From an uncultured Clostridia bacterium (GTDB lineage: Bacteria; Bacillota; Clostridia; Oscillospirales; Acutalibacteraceae): a stretch of 64,000 bases of DNA. The stretch is from assembly GCA_946187325.1 (NCBI GenBank), contig CAMHQC010000006.1:1-64000 (forward strand), given 5' to 3'. Below are positions 30,304 through 37,880 of this stretch, piece after piece (the stretch's first letter is position 1; each line of letters starts with the position of its first letter). The translations under genes and the position numbers were made by a program. Under the pieces are notes generated by a model, which searched no databases, was not told the origin of the DNA, and was given only the letters and a program-made list of their open reading frames with translations.

Positions 30304-30349
30304 GTGTGTCCCACCGGACTGTTTTATTAACGCCCTTTCGAATCCCTTA
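30304..30349 (-). repeat. Truncated tRNA-tail mirror unit S3
   Basis: Minus strand GGGATTCGAAAGGGCGTTAATAAAACAGTCCGGTGGGACAC, matching the Arg-locus unit start. Confidence 0.5.
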
Positions 30350-30389
30350 CTCAGAAAACAAAAACGACCCGATGGGTCGTTTCTGTTTT

Positions 30390-30531
30390 GGCTGAGCTGG
30401 CGTACTTTTTAAGTAATAAAGAATTATATCTCGAATCGTACGGCTTGTTAAAAGGATAGTGTGATAAACGCTCCTCCCTAAAAATGTCCCACTGGGACAT
30501 TTTCTTTACGGTCGGCTTCGAATCTCTTGTC
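30390..30531 (-). repeat. tRNA-tail mirror unit S2
   Basis: Hairpin AAATGTCCCagtGGGACATTTTT; AACAAGCCGTACGATTCGAGA; tail CTTCGAATCTCTTGTC. Confidence 0.65.
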
Positions 30532-30578
30532 TCAATCAAAAAAAATAAGGAACCAACTCAAAAGAGCTAGTTCCTTAT

Positions 30579-30724
30579 TTGGCGGAGGACAAGAATATAT
30601 CATAAATGCGAGGACTTTGTTCTCGAACCTTACGGCTTGTTCAAAGCTAAAGTATCATAAACGCTCCTCGTTAAAAATGCTCCACTGGAGCATTTTCTTA
30701 ACACTCGGCTTCGAATCTCTTGTC
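30579..30724 (-). repeat. tRNA-tail mirror unit S1
   Basis: TGGCGGAGGACAAGA (30579-30593) to inverted CTTCGAATCTCTTGTC (30709-30724); hairpin AAATGCTCCagtGGAGCATTTTT. Confidence 0.75.
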
Positions 30725-30774
30725 ATAAACCAAAATATAAAAGCCATATAGCCTAATAGGCTATATGGCTTTTA

Positions 30775-30864
30775 TGGCGGAGGACAAGAGATTCGAACTC
30801 TCGCGCCGGTCACCCGACCTACTCCCTTAGCAGGGGAGCCTCTTCACCACTTGAGTAATCCTCC
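30775..30864 (-). tRNA. tRNA-Ser(GCT)
   Basis: GGAGGAT acceptor, long variable arm, anticodon CTGCTAA, CCA. Confidence 0.95.
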
Positions 30865-30881
30865 GTATTTGGTGAACTTAT

Positions 30882-30970
30882 TGGCGGAGAGGAAGGGATT
30901 CGAACCCTTGGTCCCTCGCGGGATCACTAGTTTTCAAGACTAGCTCCTTAAACCACTCGGACACCTCTCC
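30882..30970 (-). tRNA. tRNA-Ser(TGA)
   Basis: GGAGAGGTGTCCGAGTGG...CTTGAAA...CTCTCCGCCA. Confidence 0.95.
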
Positions 30971-31084: not shown

Positions 31085-31123
31085 GCGCCAATAGCTCAGT
31101 AGGATAGAGCGTTCGCCTCCTAA
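31085..31123 (+). pseudogene. 5' half of tRNA-Arg(CCT), interrupted at the anticodon loop
   Basis: GCGCCAATAGCTCAGTAGGATAGAGCGTTCGCCTCCTAA; continues at 37516. Confidence 0.85.
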
Positions 31124-31197
31124 TACTTTGTTCGACCATACACTTTTGGGGTAAAAGTGATTGTTACCCTGTCAAAATTTAATTAAGTTTTTTACAC

Positions 31198-31274
31198 GCG
31201 TCAATAGCTCAGTTGGATAGAGCGCAAGCCTCCTAAGCCTGAGGTCGGGGGTTCGAGCCCCTCTTGGCGCGCCA
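31198..31274 (+). tRNA. tRNA-Arg(CCT), complete, island-borne
   Basis: GCGTCAATAGCTCAGTTGGATAGAGCGCAAGCCTCCTAAGCCTGAGGTCGGGGGTTCGAGCCCCTCTTGGCGCGCCA. Confidence 0.93.
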
Positions 31275-31278
31275 CGAA

Positions 31279-31320
31279 ACGCCGATAAATACTGATTTTT
31301 TCAGATTTATCGGCGTTCAT
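31279..31320 (+). terminator. Terminator downstream of island tRNA-Arg
   Basis: CGCCGATAAATACTGATTTTTTCAGATTTATCGGCGTTCATTTT. Confidence 0.7.
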
Positions 31321-31368
31321 TTTATTTTTTGATAAATTCTTTGCCTTTTTAAAGCAAGCTCAAAAAAC

Positions 31369-31488
31369 TTGCTAATAAAGGTGTAAGGTCTTGCTAATAA
31401 AAATTAGCAAAAAAACGGAAAATCTGCTAATAAAAAACGTCGATTTGCTAATAAGCTGTTTTTAAAAATTTGCAATATTTGCTAATAA
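31369..31488. repeat. Left-end iteron cluster TTGCTAATAA
   Basis: Copies at 31369, 31391, 31424 (CTGCTAATAA), 31445 and 31479, plus inverted TTAGCAA at 31404. Confidence 0.85.
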
Positions 31489-31587
31489 AAAGGTGATAGG
31501 TCACTTGTTGGAATTACGTTTTTTACTTGTAACTGAATATAAATGATAATAAAAAAAGCAGTTCACATTTGAACTGCTTTTTTTATC

Positions 31588-31775
31588 ATAATGATTTGGC
31601 TAATGTTTTTAATAGTGAAAGTGCTTCGGGATTTCCGATTAGCTTCGTCAATAATTCTATATCTGAGGTATCTTTGTTCTTTTCTGTTTGAGGTGTTTCT
31701 ATTGGTTGTTCTTCCTCAAAGTCAGTTTTCTTATCTCTAACCTCGTAAGTATTAAAGTCAGGTATAACAAAGCTT
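31588..31775 (-). pseudogene. 3' remnant of a gene (…VIPDFNTYEVRDKKTDFEEEQPIETPQTEKNKDTSDIELLTKLIGNPEALSLLKTLAKSL*)
   Basis: Open frame without start codon, in-frame TAA just upstream. Confidence 0.5.
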
Positions 31776-31781
31776 TAAGCC

Positions 31782-33910
31782 TTATTTTACTTTAACCTTA
31801 ACAGTCTTGACAACGGACTTTGATTTGTAATTTGCGTTACCATTTGCCTTTACCGTTACTTTGATGGTGTATTTACCCTTCTTGGCTTTCTTCCATTTCT
31901 TGATTTTAAGTACGCCCTTCTTGGAGATCGTGAGATACTTTTTGATTGTCTTTTTGGCGGACTTGATTTTAAAGCTGAGCTTACCCTGCGCCTTTTTAAC
32001 AGTAAATGTCGCGGCTTTTTGGGCAGCCTTCTTAACCTTTTTGAGCTTGACCGTCTTAGTCTTTGAAGTCACTTTGATCGGGTTGGCTTTCTTTTTGGTG
32101 ACGGTTTTAGCGGGTTCATCCTTTGCGGGCTCGTCCGCGGGCTTTACGCCGTAGAACTCGTCGATCATTTTGCTGTAAGCTTCTACATCATACAAGCCTG
32201 AATAGTCGATACCGCTTCCATCGCTTGCCTGCTTAGTCAGGTCATAATCGAGCTCGGCGCCGTTGTCAACATCCTTGTTATCCTTGGTGATGAACTTATT
32301 ATAACTTGACAGCGTGTAGAAGAACGTCTCGGGAGTGTACGCGATAAACAGTGAGCAGGCTCCGCCTCCGCTTCTTTCGCCGAGGATCGGGAAGCCCTCG
32401 TCCTTCGCGATACAGGGAAGCAGATTTCCGCAGGAATACGAGATGTTGGATGTGATAAAGGCGTATTCAAAATCATAATATACGCTCTTGTCGAGGTCGT
32501 TGATCTCTCCGTCTAAATTCATATCAACTTCGTTATCCATTCTTGTGATGTTTCCTGTAAGCGTCTGAATTTTTCTGTATGCAACAACATTGCTGTCCTT
32601 GTTTTTATTGGTGATCATAGCCATGATATACATAACGACCGCCGCGTTACCGCCGCTGTTGCAGGAAATATCTATAACAAAACGCTTAATGCCCTTTTCC
32701 TTAGCGTAGTCAAGAGACCATTTAAAATTATAAACCGCCTCGTTAACAAACGAATCAAATGCGAAAACAGCTGTATCTCCCGTAACATAAAGCTTTGATG
32801 CCGACTTGTCATCCCACGACTTTACAAGATCATAATCTTTGTATTTATCGCTTCTTAATTCCGACATAGCCCTGCTTTTCTGACTTGAGGCGAGAGTGCT
32901 CATCGCATAGTTTGCCGCAGTTCTGTCACGGAAATCCTCTGACTCGGCAAGTCTGCCAAGCTCATTATATACAGCGGTCCCGGGGGTAATAAACGATAAT
33001 ACCGCAGGGTAGTTTACCGCCGTATGACCTCCGTCGGAGAATACTTTTCCTAGATAAGCAGTTCCGAGAACATAATCAACCATATTTTCCGATAGAAGCA
33101 ATTCTTTTGCTCTACGGGTATCGTCGTTGTACTCGTCCAGCGCTTCGTCAAAGCTTTTTTCTTCGAGCATCGACGCGATTTCAGCCTGAGCGGGTCTGCC
33201 GTAAAGCTTATCAACCGCGAAGCACAGGTCGTTATAAGCCAACTCGACCAGATCCTTGCTGCGCTTGAGAGTATCATAAACCTTAGTGTTTTTGAAGTAA
33301 CAGTCTCTCATTACTATATCGGAGCTATGGATAAAATAAACGTTGTCTTCGCAATACACCGCTGTATTATAGGTCGCGCCGAAAAGGAGTCCGATTGTTG
33401 ACACAGGGAAATAGGTCTTTCCGTCGTACTCGATAATATCGATTTTATAAGACGAAAAGTCAAGATCGAGACCTTTTATTTCTCCCTCGGTGACAGACTC
33501 GTGCTCCTTAATGTAATCCACGTCCAGTTCGGTGCCCTCCGATTTTTCCTTAGCCGCGATAAAGTCCTCGAAATTATCGAAGTGAAGCGTATCCTTTTGA
33601 GCGTCGATTACCATTGTTCCATTAGGATTGGTAACCGTGTAAGTGCCGTCCGCGTTCTTAACCTCGGTCGGCTCGTCAACATAGATATGCTTCAGATAAT
33701 CAACGGTAGATATAAACGCCATATCAGGCATACTGCTTTTGAAAACGCACTTAAGCGTTTCGGTATTCTCCATATTGAAGATATACGCCGTGGTGTCTTT
33801 AGCGCTGATTTCGTCCTCAGCCGCGGACGCGGTCATCGGCAGAGCCGCGCTGATAAGGATCAAAAGCGCAAGAACCACACTGATTGGTGATAATACTTTT
33901 AACCTCCGTA
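31782..33910 (-). CDS. S41 peptidase-like secreted protein with C-terminal Lys-rich Ig-like domain; start codon unclear
   Basis: 'KRFVIDISCNSGGNAAVVMYIMAMI', 'FITSNISYSCGNLLPCIAKDEGFPILGERSGGGA'; signal peptide-like SVVLALLILISAALPMTASAA. Confidence 0.65.
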
Positions 33911-33964
33911 TAAAAATAAACGGCGTTACAGCATTCGATAGGTGCAGTAACGCCGTAAAATGTT

Positions 33965-34630
33965 TTAGTTTTCTTTGAGCATCTTTTTGGCTTTGCCGAG
34001 ATAGTAAATCTGGAAAATGTAGAGGAATACGGTAAAGCAAAGCGATAAGCCCGATAACCAGTTGACGATAGAGCCGAAAACTGTCGCTTCGGCGCCCCAA
34101 CGGCCAATGAAATTCAGAACAAATGTCAAAATGTATAAGATAACCAGAGTCGTGAGTATATCTTTGCCGCGCTTAACCATATCTTGTCTGCCGCATTTTA
34201 CAGACAGAGCCATCAGACCTAAGATAAGGAAAATAGTCGCGAGCATATTGCAAATATTTCCGGCAACCGTCAGAATAGTGTAGAGCCATCCAAAGAAACC
34301 TGTCTGGTTTGCGAAGAAAGACGCCGCAACGGTAAATACAATACTGAAAATCACACATAAAATAGCTTTCTTAAAGTCGGCTTCGTCCTTGCCCGCCTGA
34401 AAATATCCGACTATACTCATAATTCCCGCAACGGCAATTACAATACCCGCAACAAGCGTCAAAGCGCCCGTAACGATAAAAAGAGTTTTTGAAGCGCCTT
34501 GATCGACGTTTCCCGATACCGCGATAAAGCTCAGTATCATACCGACTCCGCCAAGCAGAGCGGCGATCAATGAGATGATTTCGGCGTTAAAAATCTTGCT
34601 AACGCCTTTTGCTGCGTTTGGAAATTTCAT
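33965..34630 (-). CDS. Multi-TM membrane protein, paralogue of 61606-62340
   Basis: RBS AAGGAGAG; MKFPNAAKGVSKIFNAEIISLIAALL compared with MEFPNTARGLKKIFAGEIIGLISVALL. Confidence 0.7.
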   Translation of the reverse strand: MKFPNAAKGVSKIFNAEIISLIAALLGGVGMILSFIAVSGNVDQGASKTLFIVTGALTLVAGIVIAVAGIMSIVGYFQAGKDEADFKKAILCVIFSIVFTVAASFFANQTGFFGWLYTILTVAGNICNMLATIFLILGLMALSVKCGRQDMVKRGKDILTTLVILYILTFVLNFIGRWGAEATVFGSIVNWLSGLSLCFTVFLYIFQIYYLGKAKKMLKEN

Positions 34631-34742
34631 GTTTTTCTCTCCTTAGAATGAAATAATTATAATAAAACGTGAAACGTTTATTACCTATAACAGATGAATA
34701 TAGTCGTACTGTACAGAGCAAGGCGCTTGTTTTGCGTAACCA

Positions 34743-34940
34743 TTACTTCTTTTTATTTCTGAGAAACAACAACCAGCCTACTGTGATCGCCATGGCAAGC
34801 GGAACGACCAGATCGATGATCGGCGAAAACTGATAGCCGCTTCTTGTAATGAAGGTGGTGTAAAGGAAGTCAAGGAGCTGCCACAGGGCAAAACACAATA
34901 CTAAGAATATACAAAATGCCACATACTTGTTCTTTATCAT
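34743..34940 (-). CDS. Small two-TM membrane protein
   Basis: RBS AAAAGGTGAT; hydrophobic segments. Confidence 0.6.
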   Translation of the reverse strand: MIKNKYVAFCIFLVLCFALWQLLDFLYTTFITRSGYQFSPIIDLVVPLAMAITVGWLLFLRNKKK

Positions 34941-35164
34941 CAAATCACCTTTTCCGATATTTGTTTTTTTCTCTCCTTAGACAAATTAAGAATAATAAAC
35001 CAGTCTCCTGTTTATTACCTGACCTTGTAATTCTATCATAAATACGCCATAAGACAATAAGATGTGTCAGAGCGTGACATCTTCTTTTGGAATGGTGTTG
35101 TATTTCAAAGGTACTTCCCTTATAATATAATAGATACAGTATACTTCCATGAGAGGAAAAGCAC

Positions 35165-35758
35165 ATGAAGGATTCCTTTGCCGATACCCTGAAACAATTC
35201 AGAACTGAAAAAAATCTGTCCCAGCAGCAGCTCGCCGATATGCTGTTTGTGGAACGCAGCACGATAGCAAACTGGGAGACGGGACGGCGGATCCCCGACG
35301 CTGTTCTGCTGCTGAGGATCTCCAAATGTTTAGATATGGACATCAACATTTTATTGGAAACGATCGACAACACCGTAGAGGAACCAAACATCATTATGGT
35401 TGATGACGAGAGTATCATTCTAAAGGGCGGTATGTCGGTGATCGGTCATTTGCTTCCCAACGCTTTGGTCACAGGCTTTACTTCTCCGACAGAAGCGCTG
35501 TCATTCGCTCGGTCCAACCGCGTACATCTGGCTTATATCGATATCGAAATGGGAAAACTAAACGGGCTTGAGTTGTGCCGTGAACTGCTGAAAATCAATC
35601 CGCGAACAAACGTCATCTATCTGACCGCCTATCCCGATTACGCACTGGAGGCGTGGAATACCGGCGCCTGCGGCTTTGCCGTAAAACCCCTTTCCGCAAA
35701 ACAGGTGCGCGATCACCTAACGAGACTGAAGTTTCCAATAAGGGGGTTGCGGCTATGA
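35165..35758 (+). CDS. Response regulator with N-terminal XRE HTH and C-terminal REC domain
   Basis: 'LKQFRTEKNLSQQQLADMLFVERSTIANWETGRRIP' then 'IIMVDDESIILKGG...HLAYIDIEMGKLNGLELCREL..NVIYLTAYPDYALEA..GFAVKPLS'. Confidence 0.9.
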   Translation: MKDSFADTLKQFRTEKNLSQQQLADMLFVERSTIANWETGRRIPDAVLLLRISKCLDMDINILLETIDNTVEEPNIIMVDDESIILKGGMSVIGHLLPNALVTGFTSPTEALSFARSNRVHLAYIDIEMGKLNGLELCRELLKINPRTNVIYLTAYPDYALEAWNTGACGFAVKPLSAKQVRDHLTRLKFPIRGLRL

Positions 35759-36960
35759 TGGATTGGACGACATATTTTTCTGCTGTGATAGATTTGACGA
35801 CCTTATTGCTCGGTGTGCTCGGAATACTGATCACTTTTATCCTGCGTGATACCGAAAGTCAGTGGCGGAAATTTTGTGTTTTCTTCTTTTCTGTAATGAT
35901 ATTAAAAACGGTTGCCGCTCTGATCGGTCAGCTTGCCGCTCTGTATTGGAAAAATATACCGCTTAAAACAGCGTGTGATTTCCTCGGCGTTTTGTTTTCA
36001 TCTACCATTATTCCGCTGTTGACGCTTTACATCTTACGCTGTTGTTCGCAGGAGCCCCGCCAATCATTCCTGTGGAAGCTTATCCTCATCCTTTGGGGAT
36101 TATCCGCAGCGGCAGCCATCGGCGACCTGCTGGAACGTACTCTTTTTACAGCCCCGACGCAGGACGGTACAGAGCATAAGCGCTGGTTGATACTGATTTA
36201 TCTGCTTTTTACGGCAATCAGCCTGATCGTCTGCTTTGTCGCGGTGATCCGCAGAAGAAAACAGCTTTCAAAATTCCAATTCATTCTCATATTGGTTTAT
36301 TTGTTGGCGCCTGTTTCTGTTATGCTGCTTGCGATGGAACTGATGCTGTTTGTCGATCAGGGAAAGCGCTATCTCGAGCAAAAGGAAGAAATCGCTAACC
36401 AGAAGGTAAGTCTTGCCGTACTGCAAATGCGTCCGCATTTCATCTACAACACAATGACGAGCATTTACTATCTGATTGATCAGGATGCGGCTAAAGCGCA
36501 AAAGGTAACGCTGAACTTCACCAATTATCTCAGAAAGAATTTTACTGCAATCGCCAAGGAGAGAACCATCCCGTTTACCGAGGAGTTGGAACACACAAAA
36601 GCGTATTTGTCAGTTGAGCAGGTGCGTTTTGAGGGTAAACTGTTTGTGGAGTTTGATACCGATTACACGAATTTCAGACTGCCTCCGCTTACCATTCAGC
36701 CAATTGTGGAAAACGCCGTCAAGCACGGAGTTGATCCCGACCTTGATCCGCTTACCATCTATATTCAAACCCGAGAAGTAAAGAACGGCGTTGAAATAAC
36801 CGTTGCCGACACCGGACCGGGCTTCGGCGCGAAGGACAACGACGAGCCGCATATCGCTTTAGGGAATATCCGCGAAAGGCTCGAAATGATGTGTAAGGGA
36901 AAAATGGAGATCGCTCCGCGCGACAGCGGAACCATAGTCAAAATATATATACCTCAATAA
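35755..36960 (+). CDS. LytS/YpdA-type sensor histidine kinase
   Basis: ATGA overlap with the regulator; TM helices; 'LQMRPHFIYNTMTSIYYLI', 'PIVENAVKHGV', 'VADTGPGFG'. Confidence 0.9.
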   Translation: MMDWTTYFSAVIDLTTLLLGVLGILITFILRDTESQWRKFCVFFFSVMILKTVAALIGQLAALYWKNIPLKTACDFLGVLFSSTIIPLLTLYILRCCSQEPRQSFLWKLILILWGLSAAAAIGDLLERTLFTAPTQDGTEHKRWLILIYLLFTAISLIVCFVAVIRRRKQLSKFQFILILVYLLAPVSVMLLAMELMLFVDQGKRYLEQKEEIANQKVSLAVLQMRPHFIYNTMTSIYYLIDQDAAKAQKVTLNFTNYLRKNFTAIAKERTIPFTEELEHTKAYLSVEQVRFEGKLFVEFDTDYTNFRLPPLTIQPIVENAVKHGVDPDLDPLTIYIQTREVKNGVEITVADTGPGFGAKDNDEPHIALGNIRERLEMMCKGKMEIAPRDSGTIVKIYIPQ

Positions 36961-37002
36961 CGAAGCTGCGTTTACACCGATATATTACAACAAAACTACA
37001 GT

Positions 37003-37039
37003 TAAAAAGTCACTCTCCTAATCAAACAGAGAGTGACTT
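37003..37039 (+). terminator. Intrinsic terminator
   Basis: AAAGTCACTCTCctaatcaaacaGAGAGTGACTTT. Confidence 0.7.
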
Positions 37040-37051
37040 TAATTTTGTATC

Positions 37052-37156
37052 CTATTTACCTTTACTGTTAAGGTCGTTTTTTAGATTTATAAGTGATTGT
37101 ATTAGTTTGCTTTGTTTATTCGCTGTTAAATAAACGCGATACTTCTTATTGGTCAT
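37052..37156 (-). CDS. 34-aa ORF MTNKKYRVYLTANKQSKLIQSLINLKNDLNSKGK, possibly truncated
   Basis: RBS GGAAAGGATTG; resembles the N-terminus of small ORFs carried by Firmicutes integrative elements (recollection). Confidence 0.45.
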   Translation of the reverse strand: MTNKKYRVYLTANKQSKLIQSLINLKNDLNSKGK

Positions 37157-37364
37157 ATAATTCAATCCTTTCCTTGCTTTTTTATACTATTATAAAGTAC
37201 AATATATTTACAGGAAAGTATGCGATAATTCAGTATTATAAGTTGATGTTCGTTCAGTATTAAATTATGTTTTTTGCTTTGAAAAATACAGTAGTCATTT
37301 AGTGATAAAAAATCATTTTTATCACGTTTTTAACAGGGAAACATACAACTTGCAAAACGGCTTT

Positions 37365-37414
37365 TTGCTAATAATCTGCTAATAAGACTATTTGAAAACG
37401 GTTGATATTAGCAA
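37365..37414. repeat. Right-end iteron cluster TTGCTAATAA
   Basis: Copies at 37365, 37376 (CTGCTAATAA) and inverted at 37408. Confidence 0.8.
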
Positions 37415-37515
37415 GTTTTAGTTAAAATCAGATTAACACCCAAACATTGTGAAACCCGCATAAATACTGAATTATTTGGCATTGTTTAAGTCTGAAAAAT
37501 CCGATGCGGGAGGTG

Positions 37516-37559
37516 CTCCTAAGCGAAAGGCCGGGGTTCGAATCCCTTTTGGCGCGCCA
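37516..37559 (+). pseudogene. 3' half of the disrupted tRNA-Arg(CCT)
   Basis: CTCCTAAGCGAAAGGCCGGGGTTCGAATCCCTTTTGGCGCGCCA; GCGAA pairs with TTCGC of 31085-31123; TTGGCGC pairs with GCGCCAA. Confidence 0.85.
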
Positions 37560-37563
37560 AAAC

Positions 37564-37704
37564 AAAAGGGATTCGAAAGGGCGTAAATAAAACAGTCCTG
37601 TGGACTGTTTTTAGCCCGTAGCGTTTATGATATTTTAGCTTTGAACAAGCCACAAGGTTCGAGATTAATCGTTTTATATATATTAATTGTACTTTTGGCG
37701 CGCC
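37564..37704 (+). repeat. tRNA-tail mirror unit U1 (Arg locus)
   Basis: AAAAGGGATTCGAA...CAGTCCtgtGGACTGTTTTT...GAACAAGCCACAAGGTTCGAGA...CTTTTGGCGCGCC. Confidence 0.8.
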
Positions 37705-37742
37705 AAAACAAAAGAGCCTTAACGGCTCTTTTTGTTTTGCTC

Positions 37743-37880
37743 AAAAGGGATTCGAAAGGGCGTAAATAATACAGTCCTGTGGACTGTTTTTAGCCCGTAG
37801 CGCTTATGAGTATTTCAGCAATGAACAAGCCGCAAGGTTCGAGATTAATCGTTTTATATATATTAATTGTACTTTTGGCG
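37743..37880 (+). repeat. tRNA-tail mirror unit U2 (Arg locus), near-identical to U1
   Basis: Near-identical repeat with GAACAAGCCGCAAGGTTCGAGA core, ending CTTTTGGCG. Confidence 0.8.

Follow-up and report, generated by a model that had tools for sequence, protein, structure and literature searches.

An island lacking an integrase gene splits tRNA-Arg(CCT) in a Clostridia genome and carries a complete replacement tRNA

The window, a stretch of 64,000 nucleotides from an uncultured Clostridia bacterium (contig CAMHQC010000006.1), contains a 6.4-kb island that splits a tRNA-Arg(CCT) gene at its anticodon loop. A complete tRNA-Arg(CCT) gene lies within the island, 75 bp inside its left attachment site (attL); the host gene has therefore been replaced whole, not left unrepaired. 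We consider it very probable that the island belongs to a family of small integrative elements whose attachment site in the host (attB) is the CTCCTAA loop of tRNA-Arg(CCT), and that its integrase has been deleted. Genomes, loci and contigs in the comparisons below carry G, L and C numbers, respectively.

The split host gene and its replacement

The order of features in the window is tRNA-Ser(GCT), tRNA-Ser(TGA), a tRNA-Arg 5' half with CTCCTAA, a spacer, a complete tRNA-Arg(CCT), a terminator-like hairpin, cargo genes, and a further CTCCTAA with the tRNA-Arg 3' half. The host 5' half (31085-31123, plus strand; GCGCCAATAGCTCAGTAGGATAGAGCGTTCGCCTCCTAA) ends in the attL core, CTCCTAA (31117-31123, plus strand), which is the anticodon loop. 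The core is repeated at 37516-37522 in the right attachment site (attR), where it runs into the host 3' half (37516-37559, plus strand; CTCCTAAGCGAAAGG...TTGGCGCGCCA). Both halves are fossils. When the 5' half is joined to 37523-37559, a tRNA is rebuilt that is uninterrupted in relatives and has a perfectly paired anticodon stem, TTCGC/GCGAA. Past the core, attL reads TACTTTG, not GCGAAAGG, and only the 7 bp CTCCTAA are common to both junctions. A first-pass annotation, made from the letters of the window, had placed the two halves at 31085-31123 and after 37522, had noted the direct repeat at both junctions, and had likened the insertion, with its site in the anticodon loop, to elements of tyrosine recombinases. 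We confirmed the coordinates of the halves and of the repeat in the sequence, and judge the assignment of element type to be correct.

The two serine tRNA genes (30775-30970, minus strand; ARAGORN) serve as a synteny marker for the insertion locus. The empty site is found in three genomes of the same genus, G032 (L040), G015 (L043) and G034 (L045), which have the order Ser(GCT)-Ser(TGA)-Arg(CCT) with an intact Arg gene; the Ser-Ser-Arg order is also seen at the occupied loci L143 and L305. The 5' and 3' parts of the intact genes match the two outer halves in the window. The split cannot be put down to chance, because in these three relatives the corresponding locus holds both halves as a single tRNA-Arg(CCT), the uninterrupted gene sought by the first-pass annotation. 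Misassembly of the window is unlikely, because the island is embedded in a contig of 93 kb and because isolates, as well as the single-contig genome G062, show the same anatomy.

The complete replacement gene lies at 31198-31274 on the plus strand (ARAGORN; Rfam RF00005, 62.1 bits). It is the sole tRNA with a CCT anticodon among the 32 tRNA genes found in this genome, which is 97% complete; this is compatible with the carried tRNA being required for viability. The gene contains the third CTCCTAA of the window (31230-31236), which would serve as the next attB. The first-pass annotation had the original gene left broken, and so it is, but function need not be lost, given the complete copy 75 bp inside attL. 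Its view that an unrestored gene is exceptional did not survive the comparison with relatives: whole-gene replacement is the rule, occurring in 64 of 69 integrase-family loci and in at least 16 genomes of the genus (see below).

Between the attL core and the replacement gene is a 74-bp spacer (31124-31197, plus strand), which we assign to the attachment site of the element (attP) and aligned with the alpha, beta and gamma spacers. Pair counts in this alignment point to a possible hairpin (31141-31147/31153-31159, plus strand): two of its seven pairs are changed on both sides, and the signal is gone when the arms are slid. This evidence is suggestive only. The replacement gene is followed by a terminator-like hairpin (31276-31320, plus strand; AACGCCGATAAAT...ATTTATCGGCGTT), recognised from the sequence and its self-match.

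Related elements in the genus and beyond

Genus-wide DNA searches, first with the left junction and then with the homologous spacer of L143, revealed the same anatomy in at least 16 genomes, including that of the window: a host 5' half, CTCCTAA, a spacer of 44-87 bp, a complete tRNA-Arg(CCT), a terminator, arm-like sites, and an integrase. In one type, spacer and tRNA are 92-100% identical; it follows a variety of host 5' halves in G152, G114, G136, G126, G122, G169, G019, G157 and G106, and is cut by a contig end in G006. Other spacer types are found in G182 and G062, in G177, and in G142 and G107. Near-identical spacer and tRNA sequences behind differing host 5' halves show that spacer and complete tRNA travel as one unit from host to host. 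The partner attR of the G177 copy is on a different contig; it includes the matching host 3' half and adjoins a full-length integrase. One carried tRNA-Arg, in G126 (L141, 2505-2600; contig C249), is shorter by about 30 bp at its 3' end than that of L142, and is either a decayed replacement tRNA or an error of the metagenome-assembled genome (MAG).

Three comparators retain both host halves on a single contig. The whole element of L118 (G142) is about 3 kb long and contains an intact integrase and a PIN-like/RelB-like pair, the latter judged by eye from open reading frames (ORFs). L116 (G107) has a frameshifted integrase remnant in two pieces in different frames. L112, in the single 2.38-Mb contig of G062, is a 9.6-kb island that has no integrase and carries LacI, a sugar transporter, galactokinase, an epimerase, galactose-1-phosphate uridylyltransferase and aldose epimerase. 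Like the window's island, then, some of its relatives lack an integrase, and their cargo is unrelated. The same tRNA is also used with ordinary half-gene repair, by an integrase element with phage-like neighbour genes in G032 (L040/L041) and by a 2.1-kb ABC-transporter island in G023 (L039).

The integrase of Ruminococcaceae bacterium P7 (L170), used as query against 84,980 species genomes, yielded a family of 80 loci in Lachnospiraceae, Oscillospiraceae and relatives. In 66 of these loci there is a tRNA within 1.2 kb of the integrase, tRNA-Arg(CCT) in every case; its usual distance from the integrase C-terminus is about 200 bp. For 64 of 69 complete CCT tRNAs in family loci, a second CTCCTAA occurs 40-82 bp upstream, whereas random placement within these loci would give 0.18; a host 5' half can be recognised upstream of 44 of the 69, and the spacing between core and tRNA is 60-61 bp in most loci. 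At five additional loci, the integrase has only a 3' half next to it, which is what a later insertion into the carried tRNA would leave. The anatomy extends to isolates, among them Ruminococcaceae bacterium P7, Extibacter muris and C. asparagiforme DSM 15981. The family integrase has no close relative among the IMG/VR viral contigs that we scanned.

Insertions at this site are stacked in some genomes. Two broken 5' halves precede a complete tRNA at L155 (G169) and at L158 (G106, Ruminococcaceae bacterium P7). In P7, the attR of the second element holds the 3' half of the tRNA of the first element, approximately 11.5 kb away, and thus the replacement tRNA has itself been used as attB. A further stack is present at L242, where a complete tRNA-Arg(CCT) has upstream of it two decayed tRNA 5' halves in succession, of which one has a different tRNA backbone.

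Whole-tRNA replacement may not be restricted to tRNA-Arg. At L146 (7228-7550; G015, contig C38), a complete tRNA-Asn(GTT) is preceded, at a distance of about 200 bp, by a 5' fragment of tRNA-Asn, and is followed by a terminator like that of the window and, by eye, an apparent integrase C-terminus.

Integrase loss, proposed mechanism and alternative readings

The island does not encode an integrase: no integrase ORF was found in 31124-37515 in the ORF list or with Pfam, and a tblastn search of the island with six integrases returned no intact integrase, only a weak chance-level match at the position of the following remnant. Reading of the frames pointed to a stretch of approximately 56 residues (31589-31756, minus strand; ...ELLTKLIGNPEALSLLKTLAKSL followed by a stop codon) as the C-terminus of a tyrosine integrase, and a genus-wide protein search confirmed it, with matches to the tail of a 383-residue ORF in G181 (Pfam Phage_integrase; 57% identity, E 5.2e-5) and to the tail of a 498-residue ORF in G177 (E 2.9e-4). 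The remnant is located where the integrase ends in intact relatives and, as in these, points toward the tRNA. The genome has five other tyrosine recombinases, none of which is close to the family integrases. A truncated tyrosine recombinase with an internal TGA is located between tRNA-Leu(GAG) and tRNA-Ala(GGC) in the same genome (L109; G000, contig C9, 59917-60426).

Arm-like repeats are retained at both ends of the island. By motif count, the left end contains six copies of TGCTAAT (31370-31486; five on the plus and one on the minus strand) and the right end three (37366-37413). The total of 11 copies in the window equals the chance expectation, but nine of the 11 are at the two ends of the island, where about 0.03 would be expected. 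Comparable clusters are present at the ends of L112, L118, L116 and L039.

From these comparisons we propose that a tyrosine integrase recombines a circular attP, arranged as right end, CTCCTAA, spacer and tRNA, with the loop of the host gene at CTCCTAA. Repair of the half gene would be impossible, because attP and the host loop share only 7 bp, and the carried tRNA would take over. In elements with long spacers, a promoter within the spacer would drive the tRNA; promoter-like pairs with 17-bp spacing can be picked out by eye (TTGAAA/TAGAAT in L150-L158, TTGACA/TAAAAT in L164). The short spacers, of about 54 bp, have no space for a full promoter, which suggests that there the carried tRNA is expressed by read-through from the host promoter, presumably with trimming by RNase P. 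The window's island would have lost its integrase later, through a deletion that spared the C-terminal tail, with a peptidase and two-component block as cargo. It would be mobile only if a related integrase acted in trans, and otherwise fixed.

Several observations weigh against assigning the island to this family. The integrase tail is short, at about 56 residues, and by sequence it is closest to integrases on the attR side (L183, L184), yet in the window it lies near attL; the L170/L118 group does have its integrase near attL, matching the position of the tail. The anticodon stem of the carried tRNA, CAAGC/GCCTG, has an A29-C41 mismatch, which recurs in the tRNAs carried by other elements (L201, L219, L223, L224). 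Folding of the window sequence by itself does not predict the spacer hairpin. Finally, the window's spacer has no good sigma-70 promoter, with degenerate positions where related spacers have better promoters.

The three CTCCTAA sites allow a different partition of the island, since either pair could recombine: a 113-bp mini-element (31124-31236) in tandem with a 6.3-kb element that restores the tRNA from the 3' half at 31230. The tRNA at 31198-31274, with its terminator and arms, does resemble the attL seen in half-restoring elements such as L039. However, spacer, complete tRNA and integrase recur as a unit in many species with constant spacing, and the 5' half of the carried tRNA combined with the host 3' half gives a poorly paired stem (CAAGC/GCGAA), whereas the two outer halves pair perfectly. 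We regard the tandem arrangement as improbable.

The first-pass annotation implied that the insertion merely destroyed tRNA-Arg(CCT), a loss that might be tolerated if, for example, tRNA-Arg(TCT) reads AGG. The original gene is indeed in two pieces, and the 5' part of a tRNA-Arg(TCT) is found at the end of contig C34, but we give this reading very little credence in view of the complete cognate tRNA inside the island and the prevalence of replacement in relatives. Equally hard to credit is an ordinary duplication of tRNA-Arg with one decayed copy, or an assembly artefact, neither involving site-specific recombination. Tandem tRNA copies and misjoined MAGs do occur, and several of the relatives are fragmented MAGs. 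Against this, the missing 3' half is located exactly at the far end of the island, the 7-bp core is present at both junctions, and isolates and the single-contig G062 share the anatomy.

One may go a step further and regard the integrase-less cargo islands at tRNA-Arg(CCT), namely that of the window and the galactose operon of G062, as live non-autonomous cassettes that have kept their att sites, arms and tRNA and are moved in trans by the integrases of resident relatives. Each insertion would replace the host tRNA-Arg(CCT) and leave the host dependent on the newest arrival, and the stacked 5' halves would record past integrations. We find this extension conceivable but rather doubtful.

Relation to known systems, cargo and neighbouring repeats

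The closest precedent is tRNA-dependent lysogeny, described for actinobacteriophages by Guerrero-Bustamante and Hatfull (2024), who also cite prophage Lj965 of Lactobacillus johnsonii; it was shown experimentally for mycobacteriophages, and its authors ask how common it is elsewhere (PMC10865867). In both cases a tRNA gene is entered in the manner of a tyrosine integrase, by way of a common core that is very short (8-17 bp in the phages, 7 bp in the Clostridia elements), and a cognate tRNA, here tRNA-Arg(CCT) at 31198-31274, is carried in place of a host gene that is not rebuilt. As in the phage system, attB in the window lies within the host tRNA gene and the core is too short for the tRNA to be rebuilt. 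The carriers described here are not temperate phages with their own integrase, but non-phage elements in Clostridia, and the window's copy has lost its integrase. Moreover, the tRNA is inside the attP region, 44-87 bp from the core, and contains the same core, so that it becomes the next target and fossils stack. New compared with the phage case are thus the non-phage nature of the elements, the whole tRNA in the attP region, the serial stacking and the integrase-less derivatives. We found no description of this Clostridia family in open-licence papers, which does not prove that none exists.

In the classical tRNA-targeted islands catalogued by Islander, the split tRNA is assumed to be restored by a fragment (PMC4383910). 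The window's island is similar in its integration at the anticodon loop (attP class A in that scheme) and in the displaced 3' fragment that marks its far end. Whereas an attP fragment restores the gene in those islands, here non-tRNA spacer comes after the host 5' half, with a complete second gene downstream, and the 5' fossil is left upstream. Searches of the Islander type would place the island edge at the replacement tRNA, missing 113 bp and the 5' fossil. Textbook and database logic has islands rebuild the split tRNA from a fragment, while the present family, in many gut Clostridia, swaps in a whole gene, as so far described for some phages. Because the replacement tRNA is the next target, the leftovers give a readable order of insertions, and the host may depend on a mobile element for a tRNA, a form of addiction without a toxin.

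Islands that are flanked by att sites and lack an integrase are known as CIME-like (cis-mobilizable element-like) elements, a class that moves by recombination with a related element, in cis or in trans. In the window, attL and attR likewise flank a segment with neither integrase nor transfer genes, in which att sites and arm-like repeats are kept and accessory cargo lies between them. The replacement tRNA sets this island apart, as its loss would remove the CCT tRNA of the host. Clusters of attC sites lacking integron-integrases (CALINs) and miniature inverted-repeat transposable elements (MITEs) are analogues of such integrase-less islands (PMC11389934).

The cargo begins with a secreted S41-family peptidase (31782-34100, minus strand; Pfam PF03572), whose true start is probably near 33905 and whose orthologues elsewhere in the genus are 77-89% identical. 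It is adjoined, as in L307, L309 and L310, by a 221-residue membrane protein of no Pfam family (33965-34630, minus strand). A 66-residue membrane protein (34743-34943, minus strand; ORF list and neighbourhood comparison), a protein with helix-turn-helix and response-regulator domains (35165-35758, plus strand; Pfam), and a histidine kinase (35653-36960, plus strand; Pfam PF06580) with a likely start near 35755 complete the set. No phage genes were found in the island with Pfam. We considered whether the cargo is specific to the island and rejected this: the peptidase, the 221-residue membrane protein and the two-component block are 77-91% identical in the chromosomes of relatives, away from tRNA-Arg, and these chromosomal copies have no CTCCTAA cores and no arm clusters. 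What the island carries is thus a block that in other genomes belongs to the chromosome.

The 179-bp repeats that follow attR (the U1 unit) were likewise rejected as part of the island, being outside attR and recurring elsewhere in the genome and in relatives. Two copies, 179 bp apart, occupy 37563-37880, and the unit is inverted at 30311-30735; both places are just downstream of tRNA genes. Related units occur on contigs C36, C26, C27 and C10 of this genome and in many genomes of the genus, and the copies include the tRNA 3'-end-like sequence TTGGCGCGCCA. Another repeat is found in the S41 peptidase, the C-terminal part of which (31782-32150, residues ~586-702) is 50-70% identical to the tails of many unrelated large proteins of the genus, a pattern that would fit the shuffling of a common surface domain.

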